The notes below the pieces were generated by a model that made no database searches, was not told where the DNA came from, and saw only the letters and a list, made by a program, of their open reading frames with translations. A DNA stretch of 64,000 nucleotides from Sphingobacteriales bacterium (GTDB lineage Bacteria > Bacteroidota > Bacteroidia > Chitinophagales > Chitinophagaceae). Positions 31,908 through 38,296 of this stretch are shown piece after piece. Each line of letters begins with the position of its first letter. Positions within the stretch are counted from its first letter, which is position 1. The stretch covers positions 17,193 through 81,192 of the forward strand of contig JAIXWS010000013.1 of the NCBI GenBank assembly GCA_027491165.1, written 5' to 3'. Made by a program: the position numbers and the translations under genes.

Positions 31908-32501
31908 TTATTTTTTTTCTTCTTGGCTAAAGGTTACGCCACCGCTTACTGCAAATTTCATGGCTTCTGCAGCATCCATTTGCGTCACTGCTTTCGTTTC
32001 TTTTTTATCGATTATAATTACCCAGCCTGAAATAGCATAAGCATGGGGCATATACACGGCAACCTTATCTTCAAGCCCCAGATTATCCATTTTTTTTTGG
32101 GTAAGAAAACCAATTCGCCAAATCTCTGGTTCCTGCTGTACCCTTACCCATACAGGTTTATTAAACTTTCGTTTGTCGCCCACAAAAGAGCCCATTATTT
32201 CTTTAACCGAAGAATAAATATGCTTGATACCTGGTGTGTGTTCTAATAAATGATTGAACGCATCGATAGCTTTGGCAAAGAAAAATCGGGTGCCCAGGTA
32301 GCCTACTAAAGTAACCGTACTTATCACTACCAGAAAGCCAATACCTCGAGGCAATTTGAAGGGTAGTATGCCCTCAAATGGGATTAAATCGTCGACATTT
32401 ACAAACACTTGGTATATAACATATGCTGTAACGGCTACAGGTCCTAGTATAACCAAGCCTTGAAAAAAGGAACGAATTAAAAGTTTTGCGAAGTACCGCA
32501 T
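31908..32501 (-). CDS. DUF502 family membrane protein
   Basis: ATG at 32501 (MRYFAKLLIRSFFQG) gives 197 residues; the track start at 32510 is a TTG. Two membrane segments (about 10-32 and 55-75) are followed by a soluble domain with HTPGIKHIYSSVKEIMGSF, typical of DUF502, and a mixed alpha/beta tail. The family is widespread and uncharacterised. It heads the DUF502-serC-DUF1015 unit, with its stop directly touching the serC start. A TACCTTTG box lies 22 bp upstream. Confidence 0.85.
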   Translation of the reverse strand: MRYFAKLLIRSFFQGLVILGPVAVTAYVIYQVFVNVDDLIPFEGILPFKLPRGIGFLVVISTVTLVGYLGTRFFFAKAIDAFNHLLEHTPGIKHIYSSVKEIMGSFVGDKRKFNKPVWVRVQQEPEIWRIGFLTQKKMDNLGLEDKVAVYMPHAYAISGWVIIIDKKETKAVTQMDAAEAMKFAVSGGVTFSQEEKK

Positions 32502-32523
32502 TGATGTCAATTATATTTCTGAA

Positions 32524-32535: not shown

Positions 32536-34557
32536 CTATAAGCTATATCGTAAGCCTAAAAATCCTCGAATTCCTTGCAAGGAGGCATAATTATAGCTAG
32601 GGTCGAAGGTATAGCCTTTGGGGTTGGATAGGGGGTCATTTATGTTTTTGTCAAATGGGTCGAAGGGGCGCATAATAGGATTTTGTGGAACGAAATTCAA
32701 TAGGTTTTTGACACCCATGTACATTTCTATTTGCCTATTTACCTTATACGTTAGCTGGATGTTAGCGATACAAAACCATGGCGAATGTTCTGGACGAAAA
32801 TCATGTGCTAGTATGGGCACGCGCATTGGGCCAGTCCATTTGGCCGTAACATCAATGATCCATTTTTTGTGCGGGGTATAACTAGCGATACAATTGCCCG
32901 ACCAAGTCGGGGCATGCAACTGTTGGATGTTGTGCAATTGGCCATTGCTATCTTGCTGACGCAATAAAACATTCATATAACTTAGCCCAAATGTGACTTT
33001 TACGGGGAAGGTAAAACTTTTGTCTACATTGATAGAAACCCCGCGAGAAATGGCATGACCATTGAGGTTTTTAAAAATAATTTTTTGGGGATCGCTGTCA
33101 AAATCTCCCACAATCTTATTGGTAAAATAAGAGTAAAATCCTGTTACATCAATACTCATGGGTCCACTTCCGCTCGCTAATCGTAAAAGGTAATTAAGAT
33201 TGCTATTGTAGGATTTTTCGGGTTTTAACGCTTCCGCAATCAAAACACTCCGTGCGCCCGACAGGGCGGCATGGTCTTCTGTAAACAAGTTGACGACCCT
33301 AAAACCAGTGCCGGCACTTGCCCTGAAAGTATGGGTATAGTTGGGCGTGTATTTTACAGCTAACCTTGGCGAATGCACTAGTCCATGGTTTTGATTATAA
33401 TCTAATCTGTAGCCCGAAAGCAATTTGGTTTGGGGGTTCAAGGTCCACTCGTCTTGGATGAACATTCCGGGCAGCATAATTTTACTCGGCGCATTTGTTT
33501 TGCCATCAGGCCTGGCTGTTGCGGGCGAGTTATCATCATAATGGGTGTAGCGAAGGGAAGACCCTAAGAGAAAACTGTGCGACCTGCCTAATTGTTTATC
33601 CCAATAGGCTTGCGCAAAGGCCACTTGTTGCTGCGCAATATAAGGTGTGGTGCCATAAACAGAATTTTGGTCGTGCCAATTGTAGGATAGCTGCGTGATT
33701 ATTTTTTCTTTGAATGGCAATTGGTATTGGCCGATGATTTCCCACCTTTTTGTTTCTGCTTCCTCGGCATAAATGCTATCTCCACCGCGGAATGCTTTTG
33801 TCCAATTAGTCTGCCCGCCCCAAAGGTCTTCATAAGCATAACGGATTCCAAGGCTTGCTATGCGGCCTTCTTTTCGCTGTATGTTCCATTTATTAAAAAG
33901 GGAGATGCGGCTTTGCAGAGCCAAATCGGTAAAGCCATCTTGGTTATGATCTGTAGGCTTTTGGAATCGGTAATGATTAAGCCCTATGAGGCTTTGGATT
34001 TTTTTACCTAAAGAAAATTTTCCTGAGATATCAGCATTGTATTCCTGCCATGATGTGGCCATTACATCGACATTAAATTTTGGAGCTAGCTGTGCATTTT
34101 TTGTGATGACATTGATGATACCGCCCATCGCCTCTGAGCCATACAATGACGAGGCAGGTCCTTTTACCACCTCTATCCGGTCTATCATACTGTTAGGCAT
34201 GCCACTAAGCCCATATACCGTGGATAAGCTGCTCACTATCGGCATGCCATCTATCAAGATCATTGTATAAGCGCCCTCCATACCATTGATGTGGATATCG
34301 CCCGTATTGCAAACATTGCAATTGATTTGTGATTGCACTCCATTCAGTAAACCAACCGATTCGAATAGGCTAGGTGTAGGATTTTTTTGAAAAAACTTAT
34401 AGCTGATCAATTCTACAGGGACAACCGTTTCGCTGCGGCGCATGGCTTTTAAGCTGCCGCTTACCACTACTTCTTCCATCATTTTAGAAGAGTCTGTTTG
34501 CGCCAAGAGATTTTGAGCAAACAACAATAAAAGCAATAAAGCAGGGTAGCGCAACAT
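32536..34557 (-). CDS. TonB-dependent outer-membrane receptor
   Basis: Protein of 673 residues: signal peptide (MLRYPALLLLLLFAQNLLAQ), short N terminus, plug domain with VVVSGSLKAMRR, INCNVCNTGDIHINGMEG, ILIDGMPIVS and IEVVKGPASSLYGSEAMGG, then a 22-strand-type beta barrel ending in FLGLRYSL. The two plug cysteines (NCNVC) are uncommon. It has no CarboxypepD_reg domain, unlike SusC proteins, so it is of the classical metal/siderophore/heme type. A DtxR/MntR-type regulator is encoded divergently with an operator inside the receptor promoter. This supports metal-responsive control and a metal-related substrate. Confidence 0.9.
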   Translation of the reverse strand: MLRYPALLLLLLFAQNLLAQTDSSKMMEEVVVSGSLKAMRRSETVVPVELISYKFFQKNPTPSLFESVGLLNGVQSQINCNVCNTGDIHINGMEGAYTMILIDGMPIVSSLSTVYGLSGMPNSMIDRIEVVKGPASSLYGSEAMGGIINVITKNAQLAPKFNVDVMATSWQEYNADISGKFSLGKKIQSLIGLNHYRFQKPTDHNQDGFTDLALQSRISLFNKWNIQRKEGRIASLGIRYAYEDLWGGQTNWTKAFRGGDSIYAEEAETKRWEIIGQYQLPFKEKIITQLSYNWHDQNSVYGTTPYIAQQQVAFAQAYWDKQLGRSHSFLLGSSLRYTHYDDNSPATARPDGKTNAPSKIMLPGMFIQDEWTLNPQTKLLSGYRLDYNQNHGLVHSPRLAVKYTPNYTHTFRASAGTGFRVVNLFTEDHAALSGARSVLIAEALKPEKSYNSNLNYLLRLASGSGPMSIDVTGFYSYFTNKIVGDFDSDPQKIIFKNLNGHAISRGVSINVDKSFTFPVKVTFGLSYMNVLLRQQDSNGQLHNIQQLHAPTWSGNCIASYTPHKKWIIDVTAKWTGPMRVPILAHDFRPEHSPWFCIANIQLTYKVNRQIEMYMGVKNLLNFVPQNPIMRPFDPFDKNINDPLSNPKGYTFDPSYNYASLQGIRGFLGLRYSL

Positions 34558-34568
34558 AGTTTGTGTTG

Positions 34569-34599
34569 CAAAAGTAAAATGTTAGAATAGACTAACAAA
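34569..34599 (-). promoter_or_regulatory. Promoter of the TonB-receptor gene
   Basis: Minus-strand TTTG (34596-34599), 19 bp, then TACTTTTG (34569-34576) match the Bacteroidota promoter exactly. The ATG is 11 bp beyond the -7 box, so the leader is very short. Confidence 0.75.
34580..34597. promoter_or_regulatory. Probable operator of the divergent DtxR/MntR-type regulator
   Basis: TGTTAG-AATAGA-CTAACA is a perfect inverted repeat with six-base arms and a six-base centre. It lies between the -33 and -7 boxes of the receptor promoter, exactly where a bound dimer would block RNA polymerase. The TTAG/CTAA half-sites resemble DtxR-family boxes. That the adjacent regulator binds it is an inference from position and symmetry. 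Confidence 0.65.
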
Positions 34600-34633
34600 A
34601 TTTAATTTATTATCCTTTCTCAGCTTGCTTTTA

Positions 34634-34641
34634 TACTTTTG
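34634..34641 (+). promoter_or_regulatory. -7 box of the DtxR/MntR-type regulator gene
   Basis: TACTTTTG fits the -7 consensus and ends five bases before the ATG at 34647. The -33 element is not clear. The transcript would be leaderless or nearly so. Confidence 0.45.
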
Positions 34642-34646
34642 AAGCT

Positions 34647-35300
34647 ATGGTTTCGCTTACCGAAGAAAATTATCTCAAAGCATTATTGAGTCTTGCCAAA
34701 GAAAAGGGCGAGGTGAATGTTACCGATTTGAGCAAACATTTGGGCATCAAAATGCCCACGGCCAATAGTATGATGAAGAAGTTGGCTGAAAAAAAACTAG
34801 TGGTTTACGAAAGCTATAAGCCATTGCGCCTTACCGAAAAAGGGAAAAAAACAGCGGGGCTGATTATCCGAAAACATCGGCTCACCGAAATGTTTTTGGT
34901 AGATAAAATGGGTTTTGGCTGGGAGCAAGTACATGAAATTGCAGAGCAAATAGAACATATTCACTCGCAAGATTTCTTTGAGAAAATGGATGAATTATTG
35001 GGCTATCCCAAATTCGACCCACACGGTTCGCCCATACCAGATAAAAATGGCAAAATGGAATGGATAAGCTATCAAACGCTTACTCATTGCAATGTTGGCG
35101 ATGTAGTGCACTTAGCTGCTGTGACAAATTCCTCGGCAGAATTTCTGAAATTCCTGAATGCACGCGAATTGAAATTGGGAGCCCGTCTGCGTATCTTAGC
35201 TATTGAGTCTTTTGATAAAAGCATGACCATTACTTATGATGGTCGAAGCGATGAAGTATTGAGCGCCTTAGTTTGCGAAAAGCTGCTTGTCACTCTATAA
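34647..35300 (+). CDS. Metal-dependent transcriptional regulator, DtxR/MntR family
   Basis: Cytosolic repressor of 217 residues. It has an N-terminal winged helix (EENYLKALLSL, DLSKHLGIKMPTANSMMKKL, ...PLRLTEKGKK), then the dimerisation/metal domain with RKHRLTEMFL and VHEIAEQIEHIHS that supply His/Glu ligands. A C-terminal FeoA/SH3-like domain from about residue 145 completes the long DtxR architecture. The first-helix ligand positions read Asn8 and Lys11 rather than Asp and Glu of B. subtilis MntR, so metal preference cannot be read off. It is divergent from the TonB receptor it probably represses. Confidence 0.92.
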   Translation: MVSLTEENYLKALLSLAKEKGEVNVTDLSKHLGIKMPTANSMMKKLAEKKLVVYESYKPLRLTEKGKKTAGLIIRKHRLTEMFLVDKMGFGWEQVHEIAEQIEHIHSQDFFEKMDELLGYPKFDPHGSPIPDKNGKMEWISYQTLTHCNVGDVVHLAAVTNSSAEFLKFLNARELKLGARLRILAIESFDKSMTITYDGRSDEVLSALVCEKLLVTL

Positions 35301-35308
35301 ACAAAGAA

Positions 35309-38296
35309 CTACTGAATCTCTTTGAGTTGCTTTGCATAAACTTCTGGTCTGTTTTTGTTAGCAGGAATTCCTAAGGCTTCGTAAATATAGTCTTGCGCTA
35401 CAGTGCGCACACTTAACTTGTTAATGGCATTGTTCTCAGCATTAGGGTGGATTCTATTGGATAAAAACACAAAAACAATCTCGTTTTCAGGATCGGCCCA
35501 TGCACAAGTTCCCGTAAAGCCTTGATGCCCGAAAGTGTATCCACTACAGCGCTCGCCACAAGGGCCCGCATCATCTCTGTGTTGGCTAGGCTTGTCAAAC
35601 CCCAAAGCTCTGCGACTAATGGGAGAATTATAGGCAATAAATTTTTCTACCGTTGCATTGGTAAAATATCGCTTGCCATTATAAATGCCATTTTTTTGCA
35701 ACATTAAAAAGATAGCAGCTACATCTTCTGCTGTGGCAAACAATCCTGCATGTCCCGCTATACCACCCATCATGGCCGCAGCGGGGTCGTGCACATAGCC
35801 TTGTATTAATTGGTGACGAAAAGCTAGGTCGTTTTCGGTTGGCGTAATTCTGTTGATGTTGTGTTTTTTTAAGGGGTTGTAACTAATGTTTTTCAATCCC
35901 ATTGGTTCATAAAATTGTTGCTCAACATAAGTATTGATCGGTTTTTTGCTCAATGCTTCTACTACTTTTTGTAAAAAAAGAAAATCTAAATCGCTGTATA
36001 CATATTTACCCACCGTTTCTAGCGGCTGGTCTAAAATGCGGCGCCAGATGGTATCTTCGTATGTGTTACGCATATACAGTTGCTTGGCTACTGCTTTATT
36101 CCATCCCTCTGACGGGCTACTTTGATAAAGGTCTTCTCGTAGGTTTTTGTTGGCGGAATCAAGCGTTTCTTTATAAAAAGGGATCCAGGCCTTTAAGCCC
36201 GCTTGGTGTAAAAGCAAATTTTTTATACTGATGTTTTGTTTATCGGTGCCGATAACCCAAGGCAAATAATCTTTGAGTTTTTTATTGAGGTCGAGCTTAC
36301 CCTCTTCATATAATTTCATGATGGCAATATTGGTGCTCAAAACCTTGGTAATACTTGCTACATCATATAGGGTATTGTTATCGACAAGTGTTTTTTTTTG
36401 ATAGTCGAAATAACCAAAAGATTCGTTGTAAATAATTTTGCCTTTATGCATCGCCAAAACTCTTGCGCCCGGAAATACCCGCTGCGCGACACAATGCTGC
36501 ATAAATGAATTCAATTTGTTCAAAGCATCTGGCGCTAACAGGGCGCCTTGATTCGCTTTGTTGAGTCTGTTTGGTTCATTAGGAACCAGGCTGCCTGTGG
36601 GCATGTCTTTACTTTGCATTGTTGGGCATACCGAAACCGGCAAGGATCCCTTGGGGATAACACTGCCCGAAAGCACTTCTGCTGCTACTCTTTGGCTTAT
36701 GCTATCATCCTCGTACATCACTAATGCCGATTTGGTTTCGCAAATATTTTTCATGATATAGGCATTGCCCATCAACACAATCATCACTTTCGGATGATTT
36801 TGAACTTGTCGTAGAAAGGATAATATACCCGCATCCAATCCGTAGTTTTTAGCAGGATACATGTTTGCTCTATGTATTGCCACAATGGTTAGGTCAAAAT
36901 TGTTCAAATCTTTACAGGCCTTATCAATGGAGGGGATTGATGAGCCTTCGGGCAACCAATTACTAACGATATTGGGAAATTTCTTGCTCAATTCACTGCT
37001 TAATGCACTGCTGTTCGTGTTAACACCTATATATTGTATTGATTGATTTTGCTGGGCTAATTTTTCAAGAATAGCATTTTCGTCGCGCAACAATGTGGCT
37101 GCAGCAGCGGCCACTTCATGTCTTAGGCTTTGCGTCAATTGATTTAATTCTTGGCTAAGATTGTTTGTATTGATTGGTGTAAATTGGTGTAATTTGTAAT
37201 CGTACTTTGCAGCAAGAATTTTCTTTACGCGTTCTTCTAAATCGCGTTCTTGAATTCGCCCATCTATCATTGCTGCTTTTATTTTGGCAATAGCTACTGG
37301 CACATTTTGTGAAAATAATAGCACATCATTTCCTGCTAAGAATGCTTTTAGGTCTACTTCTCCGGGCTGAAAATATTTGGCAACGCCATCCATATTTAAA
37401 GCATCGGTAAAGGTTAATCCATTAAAGCCAAGTTCTTTTTTTAAGAGATTGGTAACTGTATTGTAGGATAATGTTGTGGGTATGCGAAAACCTTTTTCTA
37501 AAGCGGGTACTTCTAAATGCGCAATCATCACGCTTTGTGCTCCATCCTTAATGAGTTTTTTAAAGGGATACAACTCTACATCGTGCAATTCTTCAAGACT
37601 TCTATTGATGATGGGTAAATCCTTGTGGGAGTCTGTTGCGGTATTGCCATGTCCGGGAAAATGTTTGAGACAAGCCATTACACCATTATCTTGAAGGCCT
37701 TTCATATATGCGCGTCCCAATTGGGTTACCAAGTATTTATTTTCACCAAAGGAGCGGCTATTGATTACAGGGTTATTGGCATTGTTGTTGATGTCTATGT
37801 CTGGAGCGAAATTTACCTGTACGCCCATTCTGCGACATTGGTATGCTACCGCTCTGCCCACCTGATACATTAATGCTGTATCACGCGTAGCGCCAATCAT
37901 CATTTGACGAGGAAGATTCATAACACTGTCTAGGCGCATGCCTAATCCCCATTCTGCATCCATAGACAAAAGTAAAGGTACTTGAGCCATGGCTTGGTAT
38001 TTGTTGGTCAGGTTTGCCTGGCGCACTGGTCCGCCTTGCATAAAAATGAGCCCTCCAATTTGATGGTTTTTTATCAAGGTTTCAATAGCCTCTTGGTTGG
38101 ATTTTGGGCCACCACTATAGGCTGCCACCATAAAAAGCTGACCAATTCTCTCGTCAGTATTTAATTTTGAATACACACTATCCACCCATTTTTGCTTGGG
38201 GGAGTTAGGAGCATTTCTTACAGAATTTTGTGCAATAGATATCTGAGCGCTGCAAACGAAAAGTGTAGTAATGATTGCAATAAGGCGTATTGTCAT
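35309..38296 (-). CDS. GH3 glycoside hydrolase fused to a beta-lactamase-fold serine hydrolase
   Basis: Secreted 995-residue two-domain protein with a signal peptide ending SIAQ. Residues about 35-375 form a NagZ-like GH3 domain with LLSMDAEWGLGMRL, KHFPGHGNTATDSHKDLP and the nucleophile Asp in LTFTDALNMDGV. A GH3 C-terminal-like region follows to about 580. Residues 600-995 are a class C beta-lactamase/PBP4*-type hydrolase with SxxK in ASITKVLS, a YSDLD (YxN-like) motif and the closing GHQGFTGTCAW. The pairing suggests muropeptide processing outside the cytoplasm. A TATTTTTG box ends four bases before the ATG. Confidence 0.9.
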   Translation of the reverse strand: MTIRLIAIITTLFVCSAQISIAQNSVRNAPNSPKQKWVDSVYSKLNTDERIGQLFMVAAYSGGPKSNQEAIETLIKNHQIGGLIFMQGGPVRQANLTNKYQAMAQVPLLLSMDAEWGLGMRLDSVMNLPRQMMIGATRDTALMYQVGRAVAYQCRRMGVQVNFAPDIDINNNANNPVINSRSFGENKYLVTQLGRAYMKGLQDNGVMACLKHFPGHGNTATDSHKDLPIINRSLEELHDVELYPFKKLIKDGAQSVMIAHLEVPALEKGFRIPTTLSYNTVTNLLKKELGFNGLTFTDALNMDGVAKYFQPGEVDLKAFLAGNDVLLFSQNVPVAIAKIKAAMIDGRIQERDLEERVKKILAAKYDYKLHQFTPINTNNLSQELNQLTQSLRHEVAAAAATLLRDENAILEKLAQQNQSIQYIGVNTNSSALSSELSKKFPNIVSNWLPEGSSIPSIDKACKDLNNFDLTIVAIHRANMYPAKNYGLDAGILSFLRQVQNHPKVMIVLMGNAYIMKNICETKSALVMYEDDSISQRVAAEVLSGSVIPKGSLPVSVCPTMQSKDMPTGSLVPNEPNRLNKANQGALLAPDALNKLNSFMQHCVAQRVFPGARVLAMHKGKIIYNESFGYFDYQKKTLVDNNTLYDVASITKVLSTNIAIMKLYEEGKLDLNKKLKDYLPWVIGTDKQNISIKNLLLHQAGLKAWIPFYKETLDSANKNLREDLYQSSPSEGWNKAVAKQLYMRNTYEDTIWRRILDQPLETVGKYVYSDLDFLFLQKVVEALSKKPINTYVEQQFYEPMGLKNISYNPLKKHNINRITPTENDLAFRHQLIQGYVHDPAAAMMGGIAGHAGLFATAEDVAAIFLMLQKNGIYNGKRYFTNATVEKFIAYNSPISRRALGFDKPSQHRDDAGPCGERCSGYTFGHQGFTGTCAWADPENEIVFVFLSNRIHPNAENNAINKLSVRTVAQDYIYEALGIPANKNRPEVYAKQLKEIQ

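Follow-up and report, generated by a model that had tools for sequence, protein, structure and literature searches.

The receptor-regulator locus

The window analyzed here is a stretch of 64,000 nucleotides from a Sphingobacteriales bacterium, in which a gene for a TonB-dependent receptor and a gene for a DtxR/MntR-type metalloregulator are divergently oriented, with start codons at 34557 (minus strand) and 34647 (plus strand), respectively (Table 1). The intergenic region shared by both genes contains a perfect inverted repeat, which lies about 50 bp from the regulator start and within the receptor promoter. This promoter is of the TTTG/TANNTTTG type, the primary promoter type of Bacteroidetes (PMC6847099); the spacer between its two elements measures 19 bp (34577-34595), and the outer CA of the repeat overlaps the TTTG. 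A preliminary description of this DNA had placed the repeat in a 19-bp receptor promoter spacer and the regulator on the other strand some 50 bp away, and both the positions and the geometry were confirmed exactly. In its half-sites and their spacing, the repeat matches the core of the DtxR consensus TTAGGTTAGCCTAACCTAA (PMC7762939) and by sequence is a DtxR-type operator.

Table 1. Genes, promoter elements and motifs at the receptor-regulator locus (positions refer to the window).
Feature	Position	Strand	Remarks
TonB-dependent receptor, 673 aa, plug and beta-barrel; putatively regulated gene	32536..34557	-	Pfam PF07715 and PF00593 over cut-off
CNVC motif (Cys80, Cys83) in receptor plug	34309..34320	-	C[NSA][VI]C in 80/80 orthologs
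Receptor promoter, -7 element TACTTTTG	34569..34576	-	Begins 5 bp downstream of the TTAG-N6-CTAA core
Putative operator, perfect inverted repeat TGTTAG-AATAGA-CTAACA (TGTTAGAATAGACTAACA)	34580..34597	.	Site kept in orthologous promoters
Operator core TTAG-N6-CTAA	34582-34595		Wholly within the 19-bp spacer
Receptor promoter, -33 element TTTG (plus-strand CAAA)	34596..34599	-	Bacteroidetes consensus TTTG/TANNTTTG (PMC6847099)
Regulator promoter, probable -7 element TACTTTTG	34634..34641	+	Ends 5 bp before ATG; similar TATAC[AT]TTTG just before ATG in congeners
DtxR/MntR-type metalloregulator, 217 aa: HTH, metal-binding/dimerization domain, FeoA-like SH3 domain	34647..35300	+	Pfam PF01325, PF02742 and PF04023 over cut-off

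The comparisons below draw on a sample of 60 related genomes, in which receptor orthologs were taken at about 50% identity or more, and on a scan of named genomes. The latter comprises 80 Bacteroidota orthologs (from Chryseobacterium, Flavobacterium, Empedobacter, Myroides, Pedobacter, Dysgonomonas, Chitinophaga, Adhaeribacter and others), many of which are close relatives, chiefly from Chryseobacterium, and thus do not represent 80 independent events, while clearly covering several orders.

The predicted fold of the receptor is nearest to Cir, PfeA and BtuB (Foldseek TM-score of 0.73/0.78 to E. coli Cir), and the solved structures closest to it are those of siderophore and B12 receptors. Sequence and predicted fold thus place it in the Cir/PfeA/BtuB type, an assignment that would not in itself reveal the cargo. 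The AlphaFold model falls below a pLDDT of 50 at residues 76-97, a segment that covers the CxxC motif of the plug. Just downstream of the receptor, 47 of the 80 named loci carry a small CxxC gene, nearly always with WCxxC, and all seven products tested match thioredoxin-like families. The window locus has no such thioredoxin-like gene; here the receptor is followed, 25 bp beyond its stop codon, by a DUF502 gene (31908-32510) that may belong to the same transcript. Closer proteobacterial receptors were sought on plasmids, with distant matches as the only outcome, at identities below 30% among the matches listed.

The adjacent protein belongs to the DtxR/MntR superfamily, as the preliminary description had held; it is full-length, with an N-terminal HTH (PF01325, 47.2 bits against a cut-off of 26) and a metal-binding/dimerization domain (PF02742, 103.5 bits against 27). 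None of the NCBIfam MntR/DtxR equivalog models reaches its curated cut-off with this protein; the best, NF047407, gives 143 bits where 350 are required. It is the sole DtxR homolog found in its genome, and a divergent DtxR-family gene adjoins the receptor in 18/80 named loci, three of them checked with Pfam. The metal ligands H77, E81, H96, E100, E103 and H104 are invariant among 48 regulators. Asn8 and Lys11, which had been pointed out as deviating first-helix residues, are indeed present, and Asn8 stands where an Asp or Met ligand is usual. Asn8 is nevertheless not peculiar to this regulator, since 42 of 43 related regulators having a residue at this position share it, including those of mntH operons. 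Bacillus subtilis MntR, chosen for the original comparison, is not the best reference, as Lys11 also occurs in DR2539 of Deinococcus radiodurans and at the aligned position of ScaR and SloR. Beside the regulator lies a 995-aa open reading frame (35309-38296), also found in several congeners, which by eye seems to combine a glycoside hydrolase family 3 domain with a beta-lactamase-like one.

The regulator promoter and possible autoregulation

In Bacteroidetes, transcription starts 4-5 nt after the -7 box (PMC6847099); given the 5 bp that separate the regulator -7 box from the ATG, the regulator mRNA is probably leaderless. The repeat might act as a bidirectional operator through which the regulator also controls its own gene, a role that would add to control of the receptor and not replace it. 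This would agree with the repeat being the sole one of its kind between the two genes, with a TTAG-N6-CTAA located 34 bp before the regulator ATG in one congener (G003) and with the presence of the site before mntR-mntH operons in other lineages. On the other hand, 36 bp separate the end of the repeat from the regulator -7 box downstream, and no perfect site was found in the 144-200 bp searched before the regulator in the congeners G002, G004 and G005. Because of this distance, and because three of the four congeners lack a perfect site while G003 has one, autoregulation may weakly be proposed for some places but would not be a conserved feature, and for the repeat studied here we consider it rather unlikely.

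Congener G004 is informative about the target: its gene order is the same, but receptor and perfect repeat are both absent, while the mntH site is retained. This agrees with a repeat that has the receptor, and not the regulator, as its target. In this genome, the DUF502 gene directly adjoins the regulator.

Candidate regulon and probable metal signal

Pattern searches of the 2.12-Mb genome located GTTAG-N6-CTAWC at three places: inside one coding sequence, before the receptor and before mntH, which encodes an Nramp importer. The check proposed at the outset, a search for the repeat before metal-transport genes, thus led to mntH as the only other intergenic occurrence. The mntH site, GTTAGACTAATCTATC, has one imperfect half (CTAT) and recurs in 5/5 congeneric genomes that have the same mntH, this one included, each time exactly 12 bp before TAnnTTTG. 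The receptor and mntH therefore form a candidate two-target regulon, as judged from the distribution of sites. A large regulon was rejected, given that among the further TTAG-N6-CTAA matches retrieved (about half of 31 in the genome) nearly all fall inside genes; the one other intergenic match among them, TTAGCCTTTGCTAA after an EF-Tu gene, sits within a longer palindrome.

Among the relatives, 23/30 mntH loci carry a perfect site (25/30 if CTAT is counted), often in front of an mntR-mntH operon, while the count for feoB loci is 0/30. An iron regulon was discarded on the latter ground. Since the site accompanies mntH and not feoB, manganese is the best-supported metal, and the preliminary description, which had left the metal open, can be narrowed to Mn(II) as the most likely signal, perhaps together with Fe(II). 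A dual response is still conceivable in view of Lys11, which the regulator has in common with DR2539, a protein responding to both metals (PMC3327659). The earlier suggestion that the receptor takes up a metal complex would be narrowed to a manganese complex, which we infer to be its cargo with somewhat more confidence than doubt.

A regulator that senses mainly Fe(II) in the manner of DtxR/IdeR, with a receptor that imports an iron-siderophore complex, would account for the DtxR consensus half-site, for the DtxR-type ancillary ligands and SH3 domain of the regulator, for the behavior of DR2539 and for a receptor fold nearest to catecholate siderophore receptors. It is difficult to reconcile with the mntH and feoB counts, with a candidate regulon consisting of mntH and the receptor only and with the primary ligand Glu100, which is MntR-like, where DtxR has Cys102. 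We therefore regard this explanation as improbable and retain Mn(II) as the principal candidate signal.

The same operator also stands between a DtxR gene and an operon in three relatives (L087, position 6860; L088, 5908; L089, 5777). The products of this operon resemble a di-heme c-type protein, a Rieske-like protein and a porin, and it is a possible further target in other lineages.

Conservation of the site and proposed mode of repression

Absence of the repeat upstream of orthologous receptors in related genomes had been named as a refuting outcome, and the repeat is in fact present there. A perfect TTAG-N6-CTAA precedes 17/17 intact orthologous receptors of the relatives, a count that leaves aside a partial receptor (L066) and a split second copy in G006 (L073), both without a perfect site. 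Across the phylum, 69 of the 80 named orthologs carry a perfect site no more than 300 bp from the called start codon, and 77 do so when the limit is set at about 900 bp; in some loci of the wider set, the site stands before a short upstream gene. Eleven scrambled versions of the half-sites, used as control, were found at 0-2 of the 80 orthologs. The receptor occurs without a perfect site in two Runella loci (L213, L229), and in L200 the only perfect site precedes the DtxR gene and not the receptor.

The surroundings of the site are also partly preserved: among 73 distinct orthologous promoters, 12 match the window in having an exact TAnnTTTG -7 box at a gap of exactly 5 bp, and 39 have TTG immediately 5' of the site. 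Here and in these promoters, the site lies between both promoter elements, the position that would be expected for repression by occlusion. Two Chitinophaga loci (L161, L163) have two perfect operators 23 bp apart upstream of the receptor, which suggests that binding there may be tandem or cooperative. In L212, L225 and L228, the operator precedes a short membrane-protein-like open reading frame upstream of the receptor, an arrangement suggesting that the operon is longer in some genomes.

Perfect 6-N6-6 inverted repeats number 39 in the window, where random sequence of equal base composition would give about 16, so that a single repeat lies within chance by this measure; one perfect match to the repeat pattern occurs in the window, and near matches are not in excess. 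The significance of the repeat comes from its conservation at orthologous receptor promoters. That it is a chance or unrelated palindrome and the receptor is controlled some other way has next to no probability, for although base composition alone could not reject a chance origin and such repeats are common in the window, the same promoter keeps the site phylum-wide and the scrambled controls reach at most 2/80.

We consider it very likely that the repeat serves as operator for the MntR-like repressor of the DtxR family encoded next to it, which would control the receptor and share this type of site with mntH. Comparative evidence thus supports the DtxR/MntR-type operator proposed earlier over the receptor promoter. 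Of the suggestion that the metal-bound regulator represses the receptor and possibly itself, the first part gains support from the sites at 17/17 and 77/80 receptors and from the mntH site, while self-repression is weakly backed. Binding and repression, like the metal and the cargo, are deduced here from sequence comparison.

When cytosolic Mn(II), and possibly also Fe(II), is sufficient, a metal-loaded regulator dimer would bind TTAG-N6-CTAA between the -33 and -7 elements and keep RNA polymerase off the receptor promoter. Under metal scarcity, the repressor would leave the operator and the receptor would be made. The same regulator would control mntH elsewhere in the genome via the same kind of site; in consequence of this shared site, manganese uptake across the outer membrane (TonB receptor) and the inner membrane (MntH) would be switched together.

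Comparison with known regulators and uptake systems

The proposed switch resembles DtxR/IdeR of Actinobacteria in its TTAG/CTAA half-sites six bases apart, in the presumed occlusion of the promoter and in the ancillary metal ligands. It differs in having, at the primary-site positions, Asn8 and Glu100 where they have Met10 and Cys102, and in counting mntH, instead of iron genes, among its candidate targets. With DR2539, the Mn/Fe-dependent mntH repressor of D. radiodurans (PMC3327659), the regulator shares the DtxR family, the SH3 domain, Lys11 and, as the site suggests, control of mntH through an inverted repeat; Asn8 and the inclusion of a TonB receptor in the candidate target set distinguish it.

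Manganese uptake across the outer membrane is poorly understood, and what our literature search brought up was limited to MnoT of Burkholderia and one Stenotrophomonas candidate. MnoT, as cited in PMC13217887, is a TonB-dependent manganese transporter of Burkholderia thailandensis that, unlike the system described here, works with TseM, a secreted Mn-binding protein of the type VI secretion system. The TBDR-pTFP module of Stenotrophomonas maltophilia is controlled by MntR and has CQNC in the receptor plug and an MntR box between both promoter elements (PMC13217887); the main text of that study does not mention Bacteroidota. Common to both systems are a plug CxxC, a (here putative) regulator box between the promoter elements and mntH in the (here candidate) regulon; a thioredoxin-fold gene adjoins the receptor in 47/80 Bacteroidota loci, although not in the window. 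The details diverge: the plug motif is CNVC (also CSVC or CAVC) here and CQNC there, the thioredoxin motif is mostly WCxxC in contrast to CAPC, and TTAG-N6-CTAA stands in place of a 25-bp MntR box. We treat the close parallel between the Bacteroidota receptor and TBDR-pTFP as a working likeness by features, and not as a shown membership.

The conservation of receptor and putative switch across Bacteroidota suggests a widespread, so far undescribed manganese uptake system; a search of the open-access literature in one library found no such system in this phylum. We speculate, with considerable reserve, that MntR-controlled manganese uptake throughout Bacteroidota could combine, at the outer membrane, a TonB receptor whose plug CxxC is redox-active with a dedicated periplasmic thioredoxin-like protein, import being gated by thiol state. 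A defined regulator, operator and receptor family in 80 named genomes, including those of the tractable Flavobacterium, Chryseobacterium and Pedobacter, makes these proposals directly testable. They also offer a hypothetical substrate for a large family of receptors, the closest named relatives of which are siderophore receptors. A distant second TonB receptor (32% identity; G000:C37, locus L125, 2241-4854) is located about 5 kb from mntH; it lacks the operator and is preceded by a 124-aa protein that resembles a heavy-metal-associated domain protein.
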